A DNA stretch of 37,422 nt from the NCBI GenBank assembly GCA_003138975.1, contig PLHQ01000096.1:1-37422 (forward strand), given 5' to 3'. The stretch's first letter is position 1. Every line of letters begins with the position of its first letter. Source of the DNA: Acidobacteriaceae bacterium (lineage in GTDB: Bacteria; Acidobacteriota; Terriglobia; Terriglobales; Acidobacteriaceae). This document shows, piece by piece, positions 3,346 through 15,529 of this stretch. A program made the translations under genes and the position numbers. Under the pieces are notes generated by a model that saw nothing but the letters and a program-made list of their open reading frames with translations, was not told where the DNA came from and did no database searches.

Positions 3346-4641
3346 CTATGCTGCGGCCAGATAGACGTAGCGCAGAATAAAGAGGATCGTGAGGATCCAA
3401 ACGAGCGCGTTGATTTCGTGGAGCTTCCCAGCCGCAATTTTCACGACGGTGTAGGAGATTAAGCCGAGGCTGAGGCCGGTCGCGATGCTGAATGTAAGCG
3501 GCGTGGCCAGCATCGTGATGAATGCCGGGACGGCTTCGCTGAAGTCCTGCCAAGCGATTTGCGCAATGGATTGCGTCATCAGAACACCAACCAAAATCAG
3601 CGCGGGGGCGGTTGCGTAGGCCGGAATCGCGGTGGCCAGCGGTGAGCAGAACATGGCCAACAGGAAGAGGGCGGCGACGGCGACATTGCTTAGACCGGTA
3701 CGTGCCCCGGCGGCAACGCCGGCGGCGCTTTCGATGTAACTGGTCACAGTGGAAGTTCCCGTCAAGGAGCCGAACACGGTTCCTACGGCATCTGCAACCA
3801 GAACACGGCCCACTCGGGGAATCTTGCCATCCTTGACGAAGCCGCCTTGTTCGCACACCCCTACCAGGGTGCCAACATTATCGAAGAGATCCACAAACAA
3901 GAACGCGAACAGGATTTCGAGTAAGCCGAGGTGGCTGGCTCCGCGAAAATCAAGCTGCAAGAAAGTGGAGGAGGGGTGTGGCATGGAAAAGATTGCGACG
4001 GGCCAGTTCGCAATCCCGCGCAACATCCCGAGCAGTGCGGTGCCAAAGATACCGATTAAGATTGCGCCATGCAGCTTTCGTGACATGAGGATCAGCGTCA
4101 GGACCAGGCCGAAGCAAGCGGTTTGCACTTCTTTGTCGGCAAAGCTGCCAAGGCCTACGTACGTAGCCGCATTCGCCACTACGAGCTTTGCGTTACGCAG
4201 TCCTACAAAGGCGATGAACATTCCAATCCCCGCGGCAGTTGAGTGCTTCAAGCAGTCGGGCATGCCGTTGACGATCTGCTCGCGAACGCGCGTCACCGTG
4301 AGAACAAGGAAGAGAACGCCTGAACAAAAGACCACGGCGAGTGCCGTGCGCCAAGGGACATGCATGGCGATGCAAACGGAGTAGGTAAAGTAGGCGTTCA
4401 GAGACATTCCCGGCGCCAACGCGATGGGATAGTTGGCGTAGAGCCCCATCACCAAAGTAGCGACTGCGGCAGAAACGCAAGTTGCAAAGACTACACCGTC
4501 GGGCGGCATTCCGGCCTGTGCGAGAATCTGGGGGTTCACGACGATGATGTAGGCCATCGTGACGAAAGTGGTGAGGCCACCCAGCATCTCCTGTTTCACG
4601 GAGGTTTGGTTCTCGGCAAGTTTGAAATAGCGATCGATCAA
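3346..4641 (-). CDS. NCS2/AzgA-family purine base permease (adenine/guanine/hypoxanthine type)
   Basis: 431 residues, the usual length for AzgA/PbuG/GhxP proteins (COG2252). The N-terminus 'FKLAENQTSVKQEMLGGLTTF' and the following 'MAYIIVVNPQILAQAGMP' are hallmarks of this group, and the rest is a run of hydrophobic segments consistent with 12-14 membrane helices. 'SLTGTSTVTSYIESAAGVAAGARTG' is split here as SLTGTSTVTSYIESAAG and GARTGL, both conserved substrate-site segments. The start is TTG at 4641: an in-frame TGA lies directly upstream, so no longer product is possible, and a GGGGG ribosome binding site lies a few bases further up. The gene follows guanine deaminase by 39 bp on the same strand, which implies one transcript for uptake and deamination of guanine. 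Exact base preference cannot be read from sequence. Confidence 0.9.
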   Translation of the reverse strand: MIDRYFKLAENQTSVKQEMLGGLTTFVTMAYIIVVNPQILAQAGMPPDGVVFATCVSAAVATLVMGLYANYPIALAPGMSLNAYFTYSVCIAMHVPWRTALAVVFCSGVLFLVLTVTRVREQIVNGMPDCLKHSTAAGIGMFIAFVGLRNAKLVVANAATYVGLGSFADKEVQTACFGLVLTLILMSRKLHGAILIGIFGTALLGMLRGIANWPVAIFSMPHPSSTFLQLDFRGASHLGLLEILFAFLFVDLFDNVGTLVGVCEQGGFVKDGKIPRVGRVLVADAVGTVFGSLTGTSTVTSYIESAAGVAAGARTGLSNVAVAALFLLAMFCSPLATAIPAYATAPALILVGVLMTQSIAQIAWQDFSEAVPAFITMLATPLTFSIATGLSLGLISYTVVKIAAGKLHEINALVWILTILFILRYVYLAAA

Positions 4642-4680: not shown

Positions 4681-5163
4681 TCAATACTCGATCTTGTTAG
4701 GCTTGTTTTCCCAGGCACGAAACGCTGCCAGTGCCTCTTCGCGCATCATTTGAATCATTGGTATTTTGCGCTGCGAATGCGGGTGCGCGATTTCGCGGTA
4801 GATCAATGAATCGTCAAAGCCAATCCTGGAAGCGTCGGCATCGGCATTGGCAAAATAGACGCGAGAGAGGCGAGCCCAATAGATTGCGCCCAAGCACATG
4901 GGGCACGGCTCGCAGGACGTATAGATCTCGCAGCCTTCAAGATCGAAAACGCCAAGCTTCTTGCAGGCGTTGCGAATAGCGAGCACTTCGGCGTGCGCGG
5001 TGGGATCATTCGCGGAAGTGACCTGATTCGCTCCTTCGGCAATGATGGCGCCGTCTTTCACTACCACGGCACCGAAGGGGCCACCGCGTCCGGAGTGGAC
5101 GTTGTCGATCGAGAGCTGAATCGCGCGGGCCATGAAAGGATTGTCCATGTGTTCGCTCATCAT
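4681..5163 (-). CDS. guaD: Guanine deaminase, cytidine-deaminase-fold type (GuaD)
   Basis: 160 residues. Zinc site of the CDA fold: HAE (His57, catalytic Glu59) and PCPMC (Cys87, Cys90). The C-terminal tail ENKPNKIEY and the segment FDDSLIYREI match the Bacillus-type GuaD subgroup, in which the swapped C-terminal segment closes the active site. The reaction is guanine + water to xanthine + ammonia, which feeds the xanthine dehydrogenase encoded nearby. It is the first gene of a two-gene minus-strand unit with the purine permease. The start at 5163 is one of two adjacent ATG codons. No Shine-Dalgarno sequence is visible; a perfect 12-bp palindrome occupies that place (5170-5181). A tRNA adenosine deaminase is the main alternative, but the tail and context favour GuaD. 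Confidence 0.87.
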   Translation of the reverse strand: MMSEHMDNPFMARAIQLSIDNVHSGRGGPFGAVVVKDGAIIAEGANQVTSANDPTAHAEVLAIRNACKKLGVFDLEGCEIYTSCEPCPMCLGAIYWARLSRVYFANADADASRIGFDDSLIYREIAHPHSQRKIPMIQMMREEALAAFRAWENKPNKIEY

Positions 5164-5376: not shown

Positions 5377-6753
5377 TTGAGTTTGCAGGCCTTCTTCTCT
5401 CGCCGCGTAATCACTTCTGAAGGAATCCGGCCAGCGGCCATCCTGGTGGAAGGAGAACAAATCCGGGCGATTGTTTCTGCCGATCAAATACCTGCCGACG
5501 GTTGCCAAATCCATGATTTCGGCAAAGCTGCCATTCTCCCGGGGCTCGTCGATTCCCACGTGCATATCAACGACCCGGGCCGTGCGCAATGGGAGGGCTT
5601 CGAAACGGCGACACGGGCAGCGGCGGCGGGAGGCTATACGCTGCTTGTCGACATGCCCCTGAACTGTCTTCCCGCGACCACGACGGTCGTTGCGCTTGAG
5701 GTCAAGCGCGCAGCCGCAAAAGGCAGATGCCGCGTCGATTGGATGGCTTGGGGCGGGGTGGTCCACGATAATCAAAACCACATCGAAGCTCTCGCGGCCG
5801 CTGGAGTGCCGGGGTTCAAATGCTTTCTGATCAATCCTGGTATCGATGGCTTCACCATGGTGACGGAGCAGCAGCTGCGAGCGGCCCTGCCTCACGTTGC
5901 CCGGACTAGCCTGCCGCTGCTGGTGCACGCAGAACTTCCCGGCCCAATCGATCAGGCAACGGACGCTCTGGCTGATGCTGATTGGAATTGTTATTCGACG
6001 TATCTCGAATCGCGGCCCGATGAGGCGGAACTGGCTGCTATCCGGATGATGCTGTCGTTGTGCCGCGAATACGGCTTCCGCTTACACATCGTCCATCTCT
6101 CGACCAGTCAGGCGCTTCAGGAGCTGCGCGCTGCGCGCTCTGACGGACTTCCCGTGAGCGTGGAAACCTGCCCGCACTACTTGCACCTGTCTGCTGAAAC
6201 AATCGCAAACGGGGCGACGCTGACCAAATGTGCTCCGCCGATTCGAAGCCGCGAAAATTGCGAAGGATTGTGGGAAGGTCTACGAGATGGGACGATCGAT
6301 ATGGTGGTGACTGACCATTCGCCGTGTCCTCCGGCGATGAAGCAGCTCGCCGAGGGCGATTTCCGGACCGCCTGGGGTGGTATCGCAAGCCTTTCGGTAG
6401 CGCTGCCTCTGATGTGGACTGAAGCCAGCAGGCGCGGATTCACGCTGCTCGATCTGGCACGCTGGATGGCAGCGGCGCCGGCTCGACTAGCTGGTTGCGA
6501 TTCGCGCAAGGGTCGAATTGCCGCGGGATACGACGCGGATTTCGTTGTGTTTGATCCTGACCGCGAATTCACTGTGACAGAAAACCGGTTGCACTACCGG
6601 CATCCAGTCTCTCCGTGCCTGGGAGAGACGGTGCGCGGCGTGGTGAAGGCCACCTATCTGCGAGGAAACGCTGTCTTTGCGGAAGGAGAGTTTCCCGGTG
6701 AGCCTGGCGGGCGGGAACACGCTGCGAATAGAAGTCGGCGATCAACCGCATAA
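5377..6753 (+). CDS. allB: Allantoinase (cyclic amidohydrolase family)
   Basis: 458 residues, close to the usual 450. It hydrolyses (S)-allantoin to allantoate in the cytoplasm using a binuclear metal centre. Ligands visible: His61 and His63 (SHVHIND), the carboxylated Lys148 (GFKCFL), His184 (LVHAE), His240 (IVHLS) and Asp313 (VTDHSP). The allantoinase-like context 'ETCPHYL' and 'KCAPPIR' distinguishes it from dihydroorotase and hydantoinase. The TTG start at 5377 is supported by AAGGAG at 5363-5368, eight bases upstream. The gene is divergent from guaD and precedes the xanthine dehydrogenase genes by 125 bp. Although it is encoded first, its step comes after urate opening. The tail after about residue 440 (GGREHAANRSRRSTA) is hydrophilic and probably disordered. 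Confidence 0.92.
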   Translation: MSLQAFFSRRVITSEGIRPAAILVEGEQIRAIVSADQIPADGCQIHDFGKAAILPGLVDSHVHINDPGRAQWEGFETATRAAAAGGYTLLVDMPLNCLPATTTVVALEVKRAAAKGRCRVDWMAWGGVVHDNQNHIEALAAAGVPGFKCFLINPGIDGFTMVTEQQLRAALPHVARTSLPLLVHAELPGPIDQATDALADADWNCYSTYLESRPDEAELAAIRMMLSLCREYGFRLHIVHLSTSQALQELRAARSDGLPVSVETCPHYLHLSAETIANGATLTKCAPPIRSRENCEGLWEGLRDGTIDMVVTDHSPCPPAMKQLAEGDFRTAWGGIASLSVALPLMWTEASRRGFTLLDLARWMAAAPARLAGCDSRKGRIAAGYDADFVVFDPDREFTVTENRLHYRHPVSPCLGETVRGVVKATYLRGNAVFAEGEFPGEPGGREHAANRSRRSTA

Positions 6754-6878: not shown

Positions 6879-9143
6879 ATGAACAGCGATCGCATCGTCG
6901 GAAACTCGGTCCCGCGGAAAGAGGGACGCGACAAAGTAACCGGAAGGTCGCAGTACGTCGACGATATGGTTTTACCGAACATGCTCTTCGGAGCAACGGT
7001 TCGCAGCCAGATTCCGCGCGGCCGGATCAAGAAGATCACATTCGGTCCGGGAGTTAGCTGGGATGAATTCGTGATCGTCTCCGCGGAAGATATTCCCGGG
7101 AAAAATTGCATCTCGTTGATCGAAGACGATCAGCCATGCCTGGCAAGCGAGTTCGTGAATCATCCCGAGGAACCAATTCTGCTGTTGGCTCATCCGAATC
7201 GCTATCTTCTTTCCAAGGCGGTTGAGGCGGTATCAGTCGAATACGATCCCTTGCCTGCCATCTTCACGATTGAAGAAAGCGAGCGCCGCGCGGAAATTAT
7301 TTGGGGCGAGGACAACATCTTCAAAACTTACTTGATCGAAAAGGGCGACGTCGATGGCGTTTGGGAAAAAGCCGCTTACATCGTGGAAGGCGAGTACACG
7401 ACTGGAGCGCAGGAGCAGCTTTACATCGAGAATAACGGGATGATCGCGACCTTTGACGGCACGCAGGGAATCACCGTGTGGGGCTCACTGCAATGTCCTT
7501 ATTACGTTCACAACGCGCTCATGGCTCTGTGCAATTTGCCGGCAGAAAAAGTTCGTGTCGTGCAGAAGGAGACCGGAGGCGCTTTCGGAGGGAAGGAAGA
7601 ATATCCGTCGATGATCGCCGCGCATGCTGCGCTGCTGGCAATCAAATCCGGAAAACCCGTGAAGATTATTTACGACCGCATGGAAGACATGGCGGCGACC
7701 ACGAAGCGACATCCCTCGCGCACGCGCCAAAGGACGGCGGTCAGCAGGGACGGCAAGATTCTGGGCGGAGAGATTGAGTTCACGATTGATGGTGGAGCGT
7801 ATGCAACTTTGTCCTCCGTAGTCCTATCCCGCGGGGCGATACACGCCGGGGGACCGTACCACTGGCCGAGCGTTCGCATTCGTGCGAAGGCGGTCGCCAC
7901 CAACGCGCCACCCCACGGAGCTTTTCGTGGTTTCGGAGCACCGCAGAGTCTGTTTGCGATGGAACGGCATATGGATCGCATCGCGCAGACAGTAGGTCTT
8001 TCTCCCGTTGAAATCCGCCGCAGGAATTTCCTGCAACTTGGGCAGACCACTACTACAGAGCAGGTTGTGCGCGAACCAATCAGTCTCGGGAAGTTGCTAG
8101 ACCGTGCTCTGGACGCTTCGGACTATCACTCTAAAAAACAGCGGTTCGCAAACCATAATGAAAGCGACACCACCCGGAAAGGCATGGGCATTGCTGCGTT
8201 TCTGCACGGTGCGGGATTCACCGGATCGGGCGAGCGTTATCTCAGTTCGGTAGTCGGGGTAGAGGGTTGTGCCGATGGCAGTGTGCGCGTGCTGGTTTCG
8301 AGCACAGAATTTGGTCAGGGGACGAATACCGTTCTCAGCCAGATTGCCGCCGAAGCGCTCAGTCTGCCCTACGAGAACGTCAGCATGGTTCAGCCGGATA
8401 CTCAGCAAGTGCCGAACAGCGGCCCAACCGTTGCGTCGCGCACCGTAATGGTGGTTGGGAAGCTGGTGCAGTCCGCAGCTTTGGGAATTAAGCAGACACT
8501 GATTTCATCCAACCTGCTCAGCGAATCCTATACCGCGGAGGAGTTTCGTGCCGCCTGCCAGCACTACGTTTCCGAGCATGGCCAATTCCGGTCCTGGTCG
8601 CGTTACGAGGCGCCAGACGGCATTTTCTGGGACGATCAAAAGTATCGAGGAGAAGCCTACGCGGCATTTGCTTGGGCGGTTTACATCGCGGAAGTCACGG
8701 TGGATCTGACGACGTATGGCGTATCGGTGGACGACTTCGTCGCGCTCCAGGAAGTTGGCAGAGTTCTGCACCCGCTTCTCGCAAGAGGGCAAATCATCGG
8801 TGGCGTTGCCCAAGGGATCGGATTCAGCCTTTATGAAAAAGTAGTTTGGCAGAACGGACGCATGCAGAACGGCCAAATGACGAATTACATCATGCCGACT
8901 TCAGCCGACCTGCCGCCCATTCGTGTGTTCTTCGAAGAGTTGGGGAATATTTACGGGGTGTACGGTGCAAAGGGCATCGGCGAACTCCCGATGGACGGTC
9001 CGGCACCGGCAATCGTCAATGCGGTGGAAGACGCGCTCGGAATTCATTTCGATTCTGTTCCGTTGCTTCCGGAAGACATCATGGATGGGCTCGTGTCGCA
9101 GTTCAGCGACGGCGGTGTTGGCTCCAGGGGCGGGACCCGATGA
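6879..9143 (+). CDS. Xanthine dehydrogenase, molybdopterin-binding subunit
   Basis: 754 residues, the length of the large subunit of three-part xanthine dehydrogenases. It hydroxylates hypoxanthine and xanthine to urate at a molybdenum centre. Visible residues include Glu240 (GGAFGGKEE) and Arg350 (GAFRGFGAPQ), equivalent to the purine-binding Glu802/Arg880 pair of bovine xanthine oxidase. The catalytic base is Glu702 (AKGIGELP). Having both purine-binding residues argues for xanthine dehydrogenase over aldehyde oxidase or CO dehydrogenase. Its stop overlaps the start of the 2Fe-2S subunit (ATGA at 9140-9143). The 125-bp gap upstream contains TTGTGA...TATCCC with 17-base spacing, a poor promoter match. 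No XdhC-type cofactor insertion gene is present in the window. Confidence 0.93.
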   Translation: MNSDRIVGNSVPRKEGRDKVTGRSQYVDDMVLPNMLFGATVRSQIPRGRIKKITFGPGVSWDEFVIVSAEDIPGKNCISLIEDDQPCLASEFVNHPEEPILLLAHPNRYLLSKAVEAVSVEYDPLPAIFTIEESERRAEIIWGEDNIFKTYLIEKGDVDGVWEKAAYIVEGEYTTGAQEQLYIENNGMIATFDGTQGITVWGSLQCPYYVHNALMALCNLPAEKVRVVQKETGGAFGGKEEYPSMIAAHAALLAIKSGKPVKIIYDRMEDMAATTKRHPSRTRQRTAVSRDGKILGGEIEFTIDGGAYATLSSVVLSRGAIHAGGPYHWPSVRIRAKAVATNAPPHGAFRGFGAPQSLFAMERHMDRIAQTVGLSPVEIRRRNFLQLGQTTTTEQVVREPISLGKLLDRALDASDYHSKKQRFANHNESDTTRKGMGIAAFLHGAGFTGSGERYLSSVVGVEGCADGSVRVLVSSTEFGQGTNTVLSQIAAEALSLPYENVSMVQPDTQQVPNSGPTVASRTVMVVGKLVQSAALGIKQTLISSNLLSESYTAEEFRAACQHYVSEHGQFRSWSRYEAPDGIFWDDQKYRGEAYAAFAWAVYIAEVTVDLTTYGVSVDDFVALQEVGRVLHPLLARGQIIGGVAQGIGFSLYEKVVWQNGRMQNGQMTNYIMPTSADLPPIRVFFEELGNIYGVYGAKGIGELPMDGPAPAIVNAVEDALGIHFDSVPLLPEDIMDGLVSQFSDGGVGSRGGTR

Positions 9144-9637
9144 CCCATTCTCGGGAGGGATGCGCCAAAGCCGAGATTTCATTCACGGTTAACGGTGAGC
9201 TGAAAACGGCGCATGCTTACCCGATGGAGCGCCTGCTCGACGTGTTGCGGCAACAACTCCAATTGACCGGCACGAAGGAAGGTTGCGGAGAAGGCGAGTG
9301 TGGTTCGTGCTCTGTACTGATGGACGGCATACTCGTAAATAGTTGCCTCGTACCAGTACTCCAGGCTCAAGGGTCCACCATTGTGACGATCGAAGGACTG
9401 GCGACAGGAGAGACGCTACATGTCTTGCAGGAGGCGTTTCTCGATTGCGGCGGCGCGCAGTGCGGAATCTGCACGCCGGGAATGATTCTGGCATCCGCTC
9501 ATTTATTAAATGGAAAGCCGGAACCGACGATCGAGGAAATCCGGGAGGGCCTCTCCGGCAATCTCTGCCGCTGTACTGGCTACAGCCAGATCATTGAAGC
9601 TGTGGCGGAAGCGGCGCGCCGCAGGACGATCGCATGA
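9140..9637 (+). CDS. Xanthine dehydrogenase, 2Fe-2S subunit
   Basis: 165 residues from ATG 9140, which overlaps the upstream stop by four bases; a longer open frame begins earlier but lies inside the large-subunit gene. The N-terminal plant-ferredoxin-like domain has the cysteines of [16 protein letters not shown] plus NSCL. The C-terminal helical domain has [13 protein letters not shown] and CRCTGYSQI, which hold the second [2Fe-2S] cluster. The two clusters pass electrons from the molybdenum site to FAD. The length is typical of CoxS/XdhC-type subunits. The gene ends in another ATGA overlap with the FAD subunit (9634-9637), so the three subunits are almost certainly translated together. Confidence 0.95.
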
Positions 9638-11058
9638 GATCGAATCCCTTGGACTACGAAATGGTCGCGCCCGGCAGCTTGCATGCGATTGTTTCTTTGC
9701 TGGCAAAGGACCCGGGCATGTGGCTGCCGATCGCCGGAGGCACCGATGTAATGGTGCAGTACGCGGCCGGGAAGCTTGTGGCGCGGAAGCTGGTCAGCAT
9801 TTGGAATCTCCCCGAATTACGGCGCATCGAGGTCACTCCTGACGAGGTTCGGATCGGTGCAGGATGTACTTACACCGACCTCCGCAAGCATGAGGCCATT
9901 GGACGCGAGTTTCCTCTCTTGTCGAGTGCCGCCCGGTGGACCGGCGGAATCGCGAACCAGAATCGAGGAACGATCGGTGGAAATATTGTGAATGCATCGC
10001 CGGCTGCGGACTCGCTGCCCTCACTGCTGGTGTACGACGCCGACTTGGTTCTGGTGTCAGTGCGAGGCGAGCGTCGGTTGCCCTACGCAGGCTTTCACAC
10101 CGACTACAAGAAGACGCTGATGGCGCCGGATGAGTTGATTCAAGCGGTATGTCTGCCCCGACGATTTCTAGGATATCTAAGCTATGCCCGCAAGGTCGGA
10201 GCCCGGCATGCGCAGGCTATCTCCAAGGTCTGTATAGCAGCGCTGGGCCGACTTGCAAATGGCGTGATTGCAGATGCCCGCATCGCTCTCGGAAGTGTGG
10301 CGCCTGTCCCGGTCCGTTTGACGGAGACTGAGCAAGCCGTGAGGGGAAAGGCGATTGATTCCGATCTGTGGCTCTTGGCGAAAAAGACAGTAGCTGCTGA
10401 GATCAGACCGATTGACGATATTCGATCTACCGCCAAGTATCGCGGCGTGGTGGCGGGCAATCTTGTAGCTGAATTCTTGAATCGGTTGAGTGCGGCATCC
10501 GCCGAAAGAGACGGGCTGAAAGACACTCTGGCGCGATGGAACGATCTTCCGATCGACGACGCCATCAAAATGATCCTACCCTGTTGCGGATCGAAGGCCT
10601 GGGCTCAAGGGATGGCGGCCAGACGACCGCTCGCGGATGAAGCTGCGCTGCTGGCTGCGTCCAACGAAACGTGGCACAATCTGGCGCGATCAGAGTGGAT
10701 GGAAGCGTTCCACAGTCATCCACGAATCGGAGAGTCTCGACCGGCTAACTCTTCGTCAACCCAGTCTCTGCCAGTCTTGTCCTCGATAGATCAGTCTGTA
10801 GAATGGTCGGCGCAGGAACAGCGGAACATAGGAGATGCCGAGGCTGTCGTGAAGACCGCTCTGGCGGATGCAAATCGAGAGTACGAGCAACGTTTCAATC
10901 GCATCTTCATCGTATGCGCCACCGGTAAGTCTGCGTCGGAGATTCTAGAAACTCTTCGGCGCCGGCTTAAGAATGACGCAGAAACTGAACTTCACGAAGC
11001 AGCTGAGCAGCAGCGGCACATTACGCAGATCCGATTGAGGAAATGGCTTCAAGAATGA
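9634..11058 (+). CDS. Fusion protein: xanthine dehydrogenase FAD subunit + OHCU decarboxylase
   Basis: 474 residues with two parts. Residues about 5-290 are a CoxM/XdhB-type FAD domain, with flavin-binding PIAGGTDVMV and TIGGNIVNASPAADSLPSLL and the C-terminal CO-dehydrogenase flavoprotein domain (STAKYRGVVAGNL). Residues about 297-474 are a 2-oxo-4-hydroxy-4-carboxy-5-ureidoimidazoline decarboxylase, with 'MEAFHSHPRIGE' (His362 in HPRIGE), the downstream SAQEQ and the tail 'RIFIVCATGKSA'. The first half transfers electrons from the iron-sulphur subunit. The second performs the last step to (S)-allantoin. The coding frame is continuous, with no stop or restart at the junction, so the fusion is real unless the assembly is wrong. 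The start overlaps the upstream stop (ATGA). A hydrophilic linker is not obvious between the halves. Confidence 0.92.
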   Translation: MRSNPLDYEMVAPGSLHAIVSLLAKDPGMWLPIAGGTDVMVQYAAGKLVARKLVSIWNLPELRRIEVTPDEVRIGAGCTYTDLRKHEAIGREFPLLSSAARWTGGIANQNRGTIGGNIVNASPAADSLPSLLVYDADLVLVSVRGERRLPYAGFHTDYKKTLMAPDELIQAVCLPRRFLGYLSYARKVGARHAQAISKVCIAALGRLANGVIADARIALGSVAPVPVRLTETEQAVRGKAIDSDLWLLAKKTVAAEIRPIDDIRSTAKYRGVVAGNLVAEFLNRLSAASAERDGLKDTLARWNDLPIDDAIKMILPCCGSKAWAQGMAARRPLADEAALLAASNETWHNLARSEWMEAFHSHPRIGESRPANSSSTQSLPVLSSIDQSVEWSAQEQRNIGDAEAVVKTALADANREYEQRFNRIFIVCATGKSASEILETLRRRLKNDAETELHEAAEQQRHITQIRLRKWLQE

Positions 11059-11399
11059 AACGCATTTCGACCCACATTCTGGACATTGTTCAAGGCAAGC
11101 CTGCCGGGGATGTGCCTGTGCGGCTAGAGCAACAGAATGCGCACGGGGATTGGCGATTGTTGACTTCGACGCGCACCGATCACGATGGCCGGTGCGCTCA
11201 GTTGCTGCCGGGAGGGGACGATCTGTCTGCAGGAGTCTATCGTTTGATCTTTGAGACGGGAAGTTACTACGCACTGCAAAAAGTCGATGCATTGTATCCG
11301 GTGGTGGAAGTTACGTTCCAGGCACGAGAGGGCGAATCCCATTTTCATATTCCGCTGCTCCTGAGCCCGAATGGATATACGACTTACCGGGGAAGCTGA
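11055..11399 (+). CDS. 5-hydroxyisourate hydrolase (transthyretin-related)
   Basis: 114 residues from ATG 11055, which overlaps the upstream stop as ATGA (11055-11058), the same coupling as at the previous junctions. An in-frame ATG at 11043 would add four residues but leaves only two bases after its GAGG. The family signatures are present at both ends: N-terminal ISTHILDIVQGKPA and C-terminal YTTYRGS, with the catalytic His of STHILD and the Arg/His residues in between (HFHIPLLLSPNGY). It hydrolyses 5-hydroxyisourate, the product of urate oxidation, to OHCU, which the decarboxylase domain of the preceding gene consumes. No signal peptide is seen, so it should be cytoplasmic. Confidence 0.95.
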   Translation: MKRISTHILDIVQGKPAGDVPVRLEQQNAHGDWRLLTSTRTDHDGRCAQLLPGGDDLSAGVYRLIFETGSYYALQKVDALYPVVEVTFQAREGESHFHIPLLLSPNGYTTYRGS

Positions 11400-11433
11400 A
11401 CGGCGAGGGGTTTCTCGAGATGGAGTTGACAAA

Positions 11434-12252
11434 GTGACTTCGTCAATCCGCGAATGGCTGAATCTGCTGGTCCGCTGGTTTCACGTTTTTGCGGCAATCA
11501 TGTGGGTTGGCCAAACCTACTATTTCACGTGGCTGGACGGCCAATTTGGCAAGCTCGCGAAAAATTCTGCTGCTGATGCCGCAAGTTCGGCGATCTGGAT
11601 GGTCCATAGTGGCGGCTTCTACACCGTTGACAAACAGAAATCGCTGAGGGTCGGCCCCGAGCAAGTTCATTGGTTCCGCTGGGAAGCGTTAATGACATGG
11701 CTGAGTGGAATGGTGCTGCTTTTTCTCGTTTACTATTCCAGCAGTGGACTCATTGACCCCGATGTTGCTGGGATCTCCCAACTGCGTGGCGTAGCCATCG
11801 GACTGGCTGTACTGGCTGGTGGTTGGGTCGTCTATGATCTGGCGGTGCGGTCATCTCTGGGCAGGTCGGCAACCATGTTTGCTGTATTCTCTCTGCTGAT
11901 GATTGCCGTGCTCGCTTGGGGATTGATGCACGTGTTCAGCGGACGCGCGGCCTACATCCACGTTGGAGCGGTGTTGGGCACGATTATGACGGCTAACGTT
12001 TGGTTCCGAATTCTTCCCTCGCAGCGCAAAATGATCGCGGCGGCGGCAGCCGGGGAAACCTTCGATGCGTCTCTCGGGGCTCAAGCCAAGCTGCGCTCCA
12101 AACACAATACTTTTATGGCAGTTCCCGTTGTCTTTATCATGATCAGCAATCACTTTCCTGTTGCAACCTACGGGAACACATTCGGTTGGGAGGTCCTCGT
12201 AGTTCTCGTTCTTCTCGGCTGGACGGCGGCAAAAATTATCCGCGAAGCTTAG
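11434..12252 (+). CDS. Membrane-bound urate hydroxylase PuuD-type domain (DUF989), without cytochrome c domain
   Basis: About 272 residues from GTG 11434, chosen because GGAG lies eight bases upstream and because family members start just before the 'EWLNLLVRWFHV' segment. The open frame extends to ATG 11371 but that would overlap the hydrolase gene and lacks a binding site. Several hydrophobic helices and the conserved 'IMWVGQTYYFTWLDGQF' and 'HNTFMAVPVVFIMISNHFP' segments identify the PuuD/DUF989 membrane domain. Family knowledge: PuuD oxidises urate to 5-hydroxyisourate and, where characterised, carries a C-terminal cytochrome c that accepts the electrons. That domain, and any CxxCH, is absent here. 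The gene sits exactly where a urate oxidase is needed, and no cofactor-free uricase or HpxO was found. Confidence 0.88.
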   Translation: MTSSIREWLNLLVRWFHVFAAIMWVGQTYYFTWLDGQFGKLAKNSAADAASSAIWMVHSGGFYTVDKQKSLRVGPEQVHWFRWEALMTWLSGMVLLFLVYYSSSGLIDPDVAGISQLRGVAIGLAVLAGGWVVYDLAVRSSLGRSATMFAVFSLLMIAVLAWGLMHVFSGRAAYIHVGAVLGTIMTANVWFRILPSQRKMIAAAAAGETFDASLGAQAKLRSKHNTFMAVPVVFIMISNHFPVATYGNTFGWEVLVVLVLLGWTAAKIIREA

Positions 12253-12292: not shown

Positions 12293-13555
12293 GTGCCAAC
12301 AACTGTGACCACAACTCGCGCTCACGAAGTTATGGCACGGTGCCTGAGACTGGCTTCTTTTACTGAGGACGCTGGCAGCATCCGCCGGACGTTCCTCACG
12401 CCGCCAATGCGAGACTGCCACCAGGAAATTGCTCGATGGATGGAGCCGCTCGGAGTCCACGTAAGAGTCGATGCCGCAGGAAATCTCCGAGGACTTTATT
12501 CGGCCGCACAGCCCCACGCTCCGCGTCTCCTGATCGGATCGCACCTCGATACTGTTCCTAACGCCGGTGCTTATGACGGCATCCTCGGAGTTGTGCTTGC
12601 CGTTGCGTTGCTGGAAGAGTTGCAAGGACGAAGGCTTCCCTTCAGCATCGAGGTGGTCGGCTTCTCCGAAGAGGAAGGAGTACGTTTCGGCACTGCTTTC
12701 ATCGGCAGCCGTGCTTTGGTTGGCAGGCTCGATCAGGAACTCTTGGACGCTAAGGATGCGCAAGGGATATCCGTACGGAAAGCGCTCGACAATTTTGGAT
12801 TGAATCCCGAGGAGATTCCTCAAGCCGAGTTGGGAAGCGATACGCTCGGCTATCTTGAGTTTCACATCGAGCAGGGACCGGTGTTGGAGAGCGTAAGTCA
12901 GCCACTCGCTGTGGTCGAGGCGATTGCCGGCCAGAGCCGGCTTGAGTTCACGTTTTGCGGTTCCGCCAATCATGCGGGCACGACGCCCATGCATCTTCGC
13001 TGCGATGCCATCGCAGGTGCGGCGGAGTGGATTGGCATAGTGGAACGAGTAGCTCAGGAAGTCCCTGGTTTGGTCGCGACTGTCGGAAAGATCGAAGCCA
13101 AACCCGGGGCGGCGAACGTGATCGCAGGCGAGGCGCGGCTCACACTCGACGTTCGTCACAGTTCCGACGAGATTCGCACTCTTGCGGTCGAGGACCTTAC
13201 TCGTCAAGCGCAAGGAATTGCCACGCGCCGCGGATTAACTGTACGGGAGAATACCCTGTTAAGTCAGCGGGCAGTTGCGATGGATCCGTTCTTCATTGGG
13301 GAGATAGAACAGGCAATCCTCAAGACAGGATGCAAGCTGCATCGGATGGTGAGCGGCGCCGGTCATGACGCCATGATCCTGGCGGAAAAGGTTCCTGCCG
13401 CAATGATCTTCCTGCGGACTCCGGGCGGCATCAGCCACGACCCCGCGGAATCCGTCGCAGGCGCGGACGTCGAGAAGGCGATCGAGTGCGGGTTGCATCT
13501 TCTCGATCAACTCGCCTCTTCGCCCGAATTTCACAAAAGGATAAACCGTGCATAA
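12293..13555 (+). CDS. allC: M20-family amidohydrolase, probable allantoate amidohydrolase
   Basis: 420 residues. The di-metal M20 motifs are present: His84 (GSHLDTVPNAG), Asp95 (AYDGILG), Glu126/127 (FSEEEGVRFG), His191 (FHIEQGPVLE) and the C-terminal His in ISHDPAES. The sequence type covers allantoate amidohydrolases, N-carbamoyl-L-amino-acid hydrolases and beta-ureidopropionases. Its position between urate oxidation genes and ureidoglycine aminohydrolase makes allantoate the likely substrate, giving (S)-ureidoglycine, CO2 and ammonia. GTG 12293 is taken as the start; GTG 12305 is also possible and neither has a strong binding site. The stop overlaps the next gene's GTG by eight bases. The substrate assignment rests on context more than on any single residue. 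Confidence 0.82.
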   Translation: MPTTVTTTRAHEVMARCLRLASFTEDAGSIRRTFLTPPMRDCHQEIARWMEPLGVHVRVDAAGNLRGLYSAAQPHAPRLLIGSHLDTVPNAGAYDGILGVVLAVALLEELQGRRLPFSIEVVGFSEEEGVRFGTAFIGSRALVGRLDQELLDAKDAQGISVRKALDNFGLNPEEIPQAELGSDTLGYLEFHIEQGPVLESVSQPLAVVEAIAGQSRLEFTFCGSANHAGTTPMHLRCDAIAGAAEWIGIVERVAQEVPGLVATVGKIEAKPGAANVIAGEARLTLDVRHSSDEIRTLAVEDLTRQAQGIATRRGLTVRENTLLSQRAVAMDPFFIGEIEQAILKTGCKLHRMVSGAGHDAMILAEKVPAAMIFLRTPGGISHDPAESVAGADVEKAIECGLHLLDQLASSPEFHKRINRA

Positions 13556-14294
13556 TCTTGGTCGCACACGAAGTTCCCAACAATCGAATCATCTATTGCT
13601 GACTGCGGACACCTTCGTGCGTACTGCTCTGCCCGGAATGAAGGCGTGCTCCGCAGTTGTGCACGCCGGCCCAGCATTGGGCACCAAGTTCACGGAGTAC
13701 ACCGCCGAGTTTGAAGCAGGAGGAGAACTGGGCGGAACATCGGCGCAGCGTTTCATTTTTGTGGTCGAGGGTGGCGTGAAGTTGGAAGTTAATCGCAAAT
13801 CGAAGCAGCTGGGCGCGCGGGGCTACGCCTATCTCCCCGAAGGCTTGCATCACCGAGTGACTGCCAGGAAGGCGAGTCGTGTGGCTGTCATTGAGAAGCC
13901 CTATCAGGCTCTCGGGTCGGTGGAAACGCCAAAGTTGATTATTTCCAACGAAGACGCGGTCTCCTCACATCCGCTCGGCGATGATCCCAGCTTGCAGGTG
14001 AAATGTCTGCTTCCCGATGAGATGAGTTTCGACTTCGCAGTGAACACGATGGTCTACCAGCCGGGAGCCTCACTGAGTATGGTCGAAATGCATGTGATGG
14101 AACACGGGCTCATGATGCTCGAAGGCGGTGGAATTTACCGCCTTGGCGATTCCTGGTATCCCGTTACAGCAGGAGACTTCATCTGGATGGGGCCGTGGTG
14201 TCCGCAGTGGTTCGGGGCGATCGGTAAGGTGCCGGCAAAATATCTCATCTACAAAAACTGGAACCGGCATCCTTTGGCAGGCCCGCAGCGATGA
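13548..14294 (+). CDS. allE: (S)-ureidoglycine aminohydrolase (bicupin)
   Basis: 248 residues, two cupin domains. The C-terminal cupin carries the manganese ligands with the spacing of the Arabidopsis enzyme: Glu180, His182 and His186 in VEMHVMEHG, and Gln220 in CPQWFG, exactly 40 residues after the Glu. The tail YKNWNRHPL is a family signature. It converts (S)-ureidoglycine to (S)-ureidoglycolate and ammonia. Without it ureidoglycine decays spontaneously, so its presence implies a stereospecific downstream enzyme. The GTG start at 13548 is preceded by AAAGGA and overlaps the amidohydrolase stop. The stop overlaps the next start as ATGA (14291-14294). Confidence 0.94.
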   Translation: MHNLGRTRSSQQSNHLLLTADTFVRTALPGMKACSAVVHAGPALGTKFTEYTAEFEAGGELGGTSAQRFIFVVEGGVKLEVNRKSKQLGARGYAYLPEGLHHRVTARKASRVAVIEKPYQALGSVETPKLIISNEDAVSSHPLGDDPSLQVKCLLPDEMSFDFAVNTMVYQPGASLSMVEMHVMEHGLMMLEGGGIYRLGDSWYPVTAGDFIWMGPWCPQWFGAIGKVPAKYLIYKNWNRHPLAGPQR

Positions 14295-15529
14295 GTCTTA
14301 CCATCAACCGAGATCGCCTCCTTTCCGAAATCGAAGCGCTGGCCTCGATTTCCGAAGCCGAGCCCCCTGTCGTAACTCGAATTGTTTTCAGTCCCTCCGA
14401 TCTAAAGGCCCGTGGGTGGATGAAAGCGTGTTGCGAGGAAGCCGGGCTCACGGTGCGCGAGGACGCCGTCGGAAATACCTTCGCTCGCTGGGATGGGTCT
14501 GAACCGGCCGCGTCAGTTGTCGGGACCGGCTCGCACATCGACGCCATTCCGAACGCCGGGAAATACGATGGCGTCGTGGGCGTGCTGGGAGGTTTGGAAG
14601 CGATACAAGCTTTGCGGCAAAGTGGATTTCGTCCAAAGCATTCGATTGAGCTCCTTATTTTCACTGCTGAAGAGCCAACGCGGTTTGGAATTGGGTGTCT
14701 CGGAAGCAGACTACTGTCTGGCACTCTTTCTGCCGATGCGGCAAGGAAGCTGACGGATAACGGCGGCGCCACTCTCGATGAGGTTCGCCGTGAGGCTGGA
14801 TTCACAGGAGAGCTTGAACAAGTGAAGCTACCCGGTGGCTACTACAAGGCCTTCATCGAATTGCACATTGAACAAGGTCCATTACTGGAGCGTCAGCAAA
14901 TCCCTCTCGGTATCGTCACGAAGATCGCGGCACCGGCGAGTCTGCGAGTTTTGATTGAAGGTTCGGGCGGACACGCCGGTGGTGTCTTGATGCCCGACCG
15001 CCATGATGCTCTTTGCGCGGCGGCCGAGATGATTCTGGCGATCGAGAGCGCGGCACGCACTAGCGGAGCCATTGATACGGTGGCAACCGTTGGCATCTGC
15101 GATGTGTTTCCCGGCGCGGTCAATAGCATTCCCAGCAAGGTTCGCCTTAGCGTGGACATCCGCGATACAGACCTTCAGCGGCGCAACATCGTAATGCGCA
15201 CGATTGAAGCCGCGTGCCATTCGATTTCAGCCAAACGGCAAGTATCGACTCACAACGAGTTGCTGAATGCCGACTCGCCTGCCGACTGCGCTCCCGCTAT
15301 CATCGAAGCGCTTTCCCAATCCTGCCGAAGGCACGAACTGAAATTTCTTCCCATGGTCAGTCGTGCCTATCACGACTCGCTTTTCATCGCGCGCATCGCT
15401 CCGGTGGCGATGTTGTTCATCCCCTGCCGCAACGGATACAGCCATCGTCCAGACGAGCACGCATCCCCGGAAGATATCGTTCGGGGAACGCTTGTACTGG
15501 CCGAGACTCTCGCAACCGTGTCCAGGTGA
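14291..15529 (+). CDS. Ureidoglycolate amidohydrolase, plant-like M20 family
   Basis: 412 residues. It is a second M20 enzyme but differs from the one at 12293 and resembles plant ureidoglycolate amidohydrolase in long segments: GSHIDAIPNAGKYDGVVGVL, EEPTRFGI.CLGSRLL, FIELHIEQGPLLE, GGHAGGVLMP, GAVNSIPSK and 'MVSRAYHDSLFIARI'. Metal ligands: His82, Asp93, Glu127/128 and His192. The plant enzyme hydrolyses (S)-ureidoglycolate to glyoxylate, CO2 and two ammonia. The gene is joined by an ATGA overlap to ureidoglycine aminohydrolase, which makes its substrate. No ureidoglycolate lyase or dehydrogenase is present to compete for the role. It is the last gene of the plus-strand run and converges on the NUP gene 21 bp away. 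Confidence 0.88.
   Translation: MSLTINRDRLLSEIEALASISEAEPPVVTRIVFSPSDLKARGWMKACCEEAGLTVREDAVGNTFARWDGSEPAASVVGTGSHIDAIPNAGKYDGVVGVLGGLEAIQALRQSGFRPKHSIELLIFTAEEPTRFGIGCLGSRLLSGTLSADAARKLTDNGGATLDEVRREAGFTGELEQVKLPGGYYKAFIELHIEQGPLLERQQIPLGIVTKIAAPASLRVLIEGSGGHAGGVLMPDRHDALCAAAEMILAIESAARTSGAIDTVATVGICDVFPGAVNSIPSKVRLSVDIRDTDLQRRNIVMRTIEAACHSISAKRQVSTHNELLNADSPADCAPAIIEALSQSCRRHELKFLPMVSRAYHDSLFIARIAPVAMLFIPCRNGYSHRPDEHASPEDIVRGTLVLAETLATVSR

Follow-up and report, generated by a model that had tools for sequence, protein, structure and literature searches.

OHCU decarboxylase has already been described as one half of a fused protein in plants. In Arabidopsis TTL it forms the N-terminal part of a chain whose other part is 5-hydroxyisourate (HIU) hydrolase, the enzyme of the directly preceding step, and both activities of the fused protein were shown in vitro according to PMC2834698. 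FAD subunits of xanthine dehydrogenase (XDH) are known from XdhB, PucC and the FAD half of Rhodobacter XDH chain A (1jro), all of which carry FAD_binding_5 and CO_deh_flav_C domains. Here we describe a gene that combines both kinds of protein, found in a stretch of 37,422 nucleotides from an Acidobacteriaceae bacterium (contig PLHQ01000096.1 of assembly GCA_003138975.1), hereafter called the window. Like TTL, it joins OHCU decarboxylase to another enzyme of the urate pathway; unlike TTL, its partner is an XDH-type subunit that carries the same two domains as XdhB, PucC and 1jro, and the decarboxylase is C-terminal (Table 1).

The fused gene is one frame running from ATG to TGA without internal stops. 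Under the curated cut-offs of Pfam, FAD_binding_5 scored 141.1 bits (cut-off 27) and CO_deh_flav_C 75.9 bits (cut-off 25.5), and OHCU_decarbox (PF09349) reached 135.7 bits against a Pfam cut-off of 24. These matches bear out the earlier note, which had read the frame as an FAD subunit followed by a decarboxylase, had placed the boundary at about residue 297, within a few residues of where the decarboxylase match begins, and had pointed to an HPRIGE motif, found at residues 362-367. In NCBIfam, the OHCU decarboxylase model UraD_2 (TIGR03180) was matched at 157.6 bits, above its cut-off of 139.4, and in the 5.45 Mb genome of the window the fused gene is the sole OHCU decarboxylase match. The NCBIfam model for the XdhB equivalog was hit at 191.2 bits, below its cut-off of 310, and the N-terminal half is therefore described as an XdhB-like subunit and not as an XdhB equivalog; it has both domains of an XDH FAD subunit, and the molybdenum and [2Fe-2S] subunits are encoded alongside, as is the case for bacterial XDH FAD subunits. 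The decarboxylase half has equivalents of zebrafish His67, Glu87 and Arg161, which we take to be the catalytic residues of OHCU decarboxylase, and none of the three varies among the 27 fused and 42 separate genes compared below. Moreover, the molybdenum subunit has aligned equivalents of bovine Glu802 (the Glu in FGGKE) and Arg880 (Arg318), the bovine numbers being counted off the alignment with 1fiq chain C; we assume that these two are purine-binding residues and mark purine hydroxylases. MoCoBD_2 was matched nine times genome-wide, and therefore other molybdenum hydroxylases are present in this genome. AlphaFold2, run on a 3-row alignment, gave a mean pLDDT of 32.5.

Table 1. Features of the purine-degradation cluster and of the fused gene (positions in the window).
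Feature	Positions	Strand	Basis
Xanthine/uracil permease family protein	3346..4641	-	Pfam
Deaminase, cytidine/deoxycytidylate type	4681..5163	-	Pfam
Allantoinase AllB	5377..6753	+	NCBIfam
XDH-type molybdenum subunit	6879..9143	+	NCBIfam, Pfam, alignment
XDH-type [2Fe-2S] subunit	9140..9637	+	NCBIfam, Pfam
Fused gene, XDH-type FAD subunit and OHCU decarboxylase, 474 aa	9634..11058	+	Frame, NCBIfam, Pfam
FAD-subunit half (FAD_binding_5 residues 8-176, CO_deh_flav_C residues 186-284)	9655..10485	+	Pfam
Linker and start of decarboxylase part	10486..10539	+	Alignment of relatives
CTGA, relic of ancestral 4-base ATGA overlap	10516..10519	+	Alignment with unfused relatives
OHCU decarboxylase domain, residues 303-469	10540..11040	+	Pfam, profile search of genome
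His362 of HPRIGE	10717..10719	+	Aligned with His67 of zebrafish chain 2o70
Glu395	10816-10818	+	Assigned by motif (alignment with 2o70 gapped there)
Arg467	11032-11034	+	Alignment with zebrafish chain 2o70
HIU hydrolase	11055..11399	+	NCBIfam, Pfam
PuuD-type membrane urate oxidase domain	11371..12252	+	Pfam
Allantoate amidohydrolase	12293..13555	+	NCBIfam
(S)-ureidoglycine aminohydrolase	13548..14294	+	NCBIfam
Hydantoinase/carbamoylase-family amidase	14291..15529	+	NCBIfam

The fused gene sits within a purine-degradation cluster in which the permease and the deaminase lie on the minus strand and the rest on the plus strand. From its context the deaminase is perhaps a guanine deaminase, and from its position the amidase is perhaps a ureidoglycolate amidohydrolase. 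ATGA overlaps are found between the molybdenum and Fe-S genes (9140-9143), between the Fe-S and fused genes (9634-9637) and between the decarboxylase and HIU hydrolase, the start of the latter being set by its overlap with the stop of the fused gene (the listed ORF begins at 11043). HIU hydrolase, which in TTL is part of the chain, is absent from the fused protein and encoded by this next, separate gene. The urate oxidase that accompanies the fused gene varies, being of the PuuD type in the window and a soluble uricase (PF01014) in the relative L043, and the fused protein is therefore not tied to one route of urate oxidation.

The PuuD-type domain of the window covers positions 3-262 of the 295 in its profile and comes without a cytochrome c at its C-terminus, and none of 37 PuuD-hit frames from 36 loci, the window's included, has a CxxCH motif. 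According to PMC4562309, all full-length DUF989 proteins carry cytochrome c and shorter ones without it occur in other gene contexts; set against the contexts of short forms given there, the window has a PuuD domain without cytochrome c in a purine cluster. At L077:9941-11542 the PuuD domain runs on into about 230 further residues, with a carboxypeptidase-regulatory-like domain at the end in place of cytochrome c, and the PuuD frame of L079 is of the same length.

Searches with PF09349 gave matches in 53 of 396 genomes from the phylum, 18 of 45 from the genus and 143 of 398 from the family. Loci from the family and genus (140) together with palsa_423 made up 141 classed loci, among which palsa_423 (L032) and G402 (L100) have identical protein rows and could represent a single genome entered twice. 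Four of the 143 matching family genomes (G729, G541, G607 and G727) had fragments only and were left out, as was a second fragment in G685, and L104 was left unclassed, having no BLAST hit to the decarboxylase of the window. In 69 of the 141 classed acidobacterial loci, the decarboxylase is immediately preceded by an FAD gene; the two share one frame in 27 of these 69, window included, and are separate genes in 42. By genus, 14 fused loci belong to that of the window (g1), seven to g236, three to g4 and one each to g246, g2 and g232, and in the window's genus 4 of the 18 decarboxylase-bearing genomes keep the FAD and decarboxylase genes separate. In seven fused relatives (L043, L087, L107, L136, L142, L163 and L204), which together span the other six fused groups on the tree presented below, the order of the three domains was confirmed by Pfam. 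One of the 27, L090 (G398), has a broken FAD half, of which only about the last 41 residues are in the fused frame; either the gene itself or its assembly has a frame break.

Outside the family of the window, the FAD fusion was found in none of the 32 matching genomes of the phylum sample, four of which match over 45-48 profile positions only. The long decarboxylase frames there comprised six allantoicase-decarboxylase fusions identified by Pfam (L042, L045, L049, L055, L060 and L072) and one allantoinase (AllB)-decarboxylase fusion of 717 aa (L067:5595-7745). Within the family, BLAST identified allantoicase-decarboxylase fusions at five loci (L106, L110, L121, L148 and L187), and in one g4 genome (L133:2132-3118) the decarboxylase and HIU hydrolase form one chain, ordered as in plant TTL. 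The earlier note had named fusions with HIU hydrolase or allantoinase-like proteins, a list that proved incomplete, as in this phylum allantoicase and allantoinase are also partners and HIU hydrolase is one only once. Beyond the phylum, tblastn against plasmids gave 660 records, in none of which a single place covered 80% of the query, and a scan of contigs from all phyla by exact peptide patterns, which reaches close relatives only, returned two loci, both acidobacterial.

The unfused loci show how the two genes became one. In 38 of these 42 loci the stop of the FAD gene and the start of the decarboxylase gene (ATG, GTG or TTG) overlap by four bases, and in G084 and palsa_423 this overlap is ATGA. 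In the window, CTG now stands where the decarboxylase gene used to start and is read in frame. The former stop, TGA at 10517-10519, has dropped out of frame, since the sequence upstream of it exceeds that of G084 and palsa_423 by 7 or 10 bases. Seven codons before a conserved Trp, xTGA occurs in 13 of the 27 fused genes (window included) and in 37 of the 42 unfused ones, and the background rate of TGA in the frame of the relic is 254 in 12665 codons (2%); no relic stop was seen in the other 14 fused genes. In the fused clade of the window, the linker between the anchors has 19-25 residues and is always in frame. The direction of change, from two genes to one, is given by the relic stops and by the unfused state of the surrounding loci, not by an outgroup, and the tree presented below is a gene tree. 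The fused state is thus derived from two genes with an ATGA-type overlap, through frame-changing indels just upstream of the overlap.

In a maximum-likelihood tree built from 68 rows of joined FAD and decarboxylase sequence, 26 of them fused (L090 was left out), the fused label needs seven changes, six of which are forced by starred branches, and shuffled labels need 21 on average. A single clade of all 26 fused rows was rejected (p-AU 8.5e-9). A single clade of the 13 fused rows from the window's genus was not rejected (p 0.098), and for this reason we count six to seven origins and not firmly seven. The same two neighbouring genes hence appear to have fused independently several times, with about six to seven origins.

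We consider that the product is probably a bifunctional subunit, in which the N-terminal half would serve as the FAD subunit of a three-part XDH whose other two subunits come from the two upstream genes, and the C-terminal half would be an OHCU decarboxylase held on a short linker. Should the FAD half still be built into XDH, each complex would carry decarboxylase domains at a fixed 1:1 ratio; tethering of the decarboxylase to XDH, as put forward in the earlier note, is expected only if the FAD half assembles with the molybdenum and Fe-S subunits. The benefit may be a locked stoichiometry and a decarboxylase kept within one purine-degrading assembly, where short-lived OHCU could be captured and decarboxylated stereospecifically. 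PMC4562309 gives OHCU a half-life of 9.6 min and reports that, in vitro, allantoin comes out racemic when the later enzymes are missing. Direct channelling of the XDH product to the decarboxylase is unlikely, since urate oxidation and HIU hydrolysis intervene, in agreement with the earlier note, which had stressed that the two steps are not consecutive. Against the bifunctional subunit stand the 42 of 69 loci and the 4 of 18 genomes of the genus that keep separate genes, the 14 of 27 fused genes without a relic stop and the score of the FAD half below the XdhB equivalog cut-off, and the other upstream partners, allantoicase and allantoinase, would fit a decarboxylase that tolerates many partners. 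In an XDH dimer, the two FAD domains lie far apart. Taken together with the dimer formed by the OHCU decarboxylase domain in its crystal, as described in PMC2834698, this arrangement might allow decarboxylase pairing to bridge XDH dimers into filaments or lattices, a repeatedly evolved assembly for purine degradation; we regard this as a long shot, weakened by PMC2834698 itself, which argues that plant TTL, dominated by the tetramer of the partner, probably lacks this pairing.

Other explanations have to be weighed against a bifunctional subunit. The earlier note itself had named an assembly error joining two genes as grounds for giving up the fusion, and the genome of the window is indeed assembled in 223 contigs. 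However, the two domains lie in one frame in 26 other genomes, several fused copies come from assemblies of 10-20 contigs (G036, G415, G577 and G726), and in the window the ancestral ATG itself is lost; a sequencing or assembly frameshift is hence rejected as extremely improbable on account of the fused relatives, 14 of the 27 single-frame loci being in the window's genus. It is also very unlikely that the fusion is a matter of translational convenience, in which an internal start would additionally yield free decarboxylase and the join would mainly tune expression. Eight of the 27 fused genes do keep an ancestral start followed by A (ATGA in two, GTGA in five and TTGA in one), yet the window has CTG at this place, although an in-frame TTG is present ten codons upstream at 10486, and the linkers, whatever their length, preserve the frame, which is what one would expect were the full-length protein important.

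A neutral origin deserves more weight, even if we hold it to be rather unlikely. Here chance indels would join overlapping genes, both halves would tolerate the join, and it would be harmless without having a function; with this overlap geometry a single frame-changing indel is enough for fusion, linkers are short and differ between copies, and several different upstream genes became partners of the decarboxylase. Yet other junctions of the cluster, often with the same overlap, rarely fuse. At the same 69 loci, fusion was seen at none of 67 assessable Fe-S/FAD junctions (42 with a 4-base overlap), at 1 of 69 decarboxylase/HIU hydrolase junctions (62 with the overlap) and at 1 of 36 assessable Mo/Fe-S junctions (32 with the overlap), where locus counts are not counts of independent events and the tolerance of gene ends to extension may differ between junctions. 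Fusion at the first of these junctions is normal in other XDHs, and fusion at the second exists in Arabidopsis according to PMC2834698. The lone fused Mo/Fe-S junction (L032:2-1412, palsa_423) lies at a contig edge. Allantoinase and decarboxylase genes adjoin in 58 of 140 loci and are never fused, but as only four of these have a 4-base overlap this junction was dropped as a control. As neighbouring junctions, often with the same overlap, so rarely fuse, the preference is for the FAD/decarboxylase pair, provided that the other genes are no less tolerant of extended ends.

These bacteria offer a repeated natural experiment, in which two non-consecutive enzymes of one cluster became one protein about six to seven times, while the adjacent junctions, many of them overlapping in the same way, remained separate. 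This hints at a physical link between the XDH that makes urate and the last enzyme forming allantoin. Close relatives with fused and unfused genes allow testing whether purine catabolism is an organised assembly.

In comparison with known proteins, the matches of the window to XdhB, PucC and 1jro end at about residues 278-287 and cover none of the decarboxylase. In 1jro it is residues 202-452 of chain A that match the FAD half, the first part of that chain being presumably its Fe-S half. NF010373 (PRK13799, 'Unknown domain/N-carbamoyl-L-amino acid hydrolase fusion protein') is matched by the decarboxylase of the window at N-terminal positions 104-171 with 27.7 bits against a cut-off of 1087; it seems to join the same kind of domain to a hydrolase, with another partner and another order. 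NF010371 (PRK13797), named allantoicase, is matched at positions 338-518 of its 521, from which we infer that it includes a decarboxylase placed C-terminally on a purine-pathway enzyme, as in the window. The whole-protein score was 160.8 bits against a cut-off of 814 and, unlike the partner in the window, that of NF010371 acts after allantoin and is not a subunit of a redox complex. For the earlier note, a wide previous description of the architecture would have counted against its claim: among the matches listed, no fusion of OHCU decarboxylase with an XDH subunit appeared in titles or abstract openings of the open-licence literature searched, yet the architecture is common in the window's family, and sequence databases surely hold these fused proteins. 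OHCU decarboxylase fusions are known with other partners and, with phyla beyond Acidobacteriota hardly sampled, the XDH subunit probably adds a new partner to this known kind of fusion.
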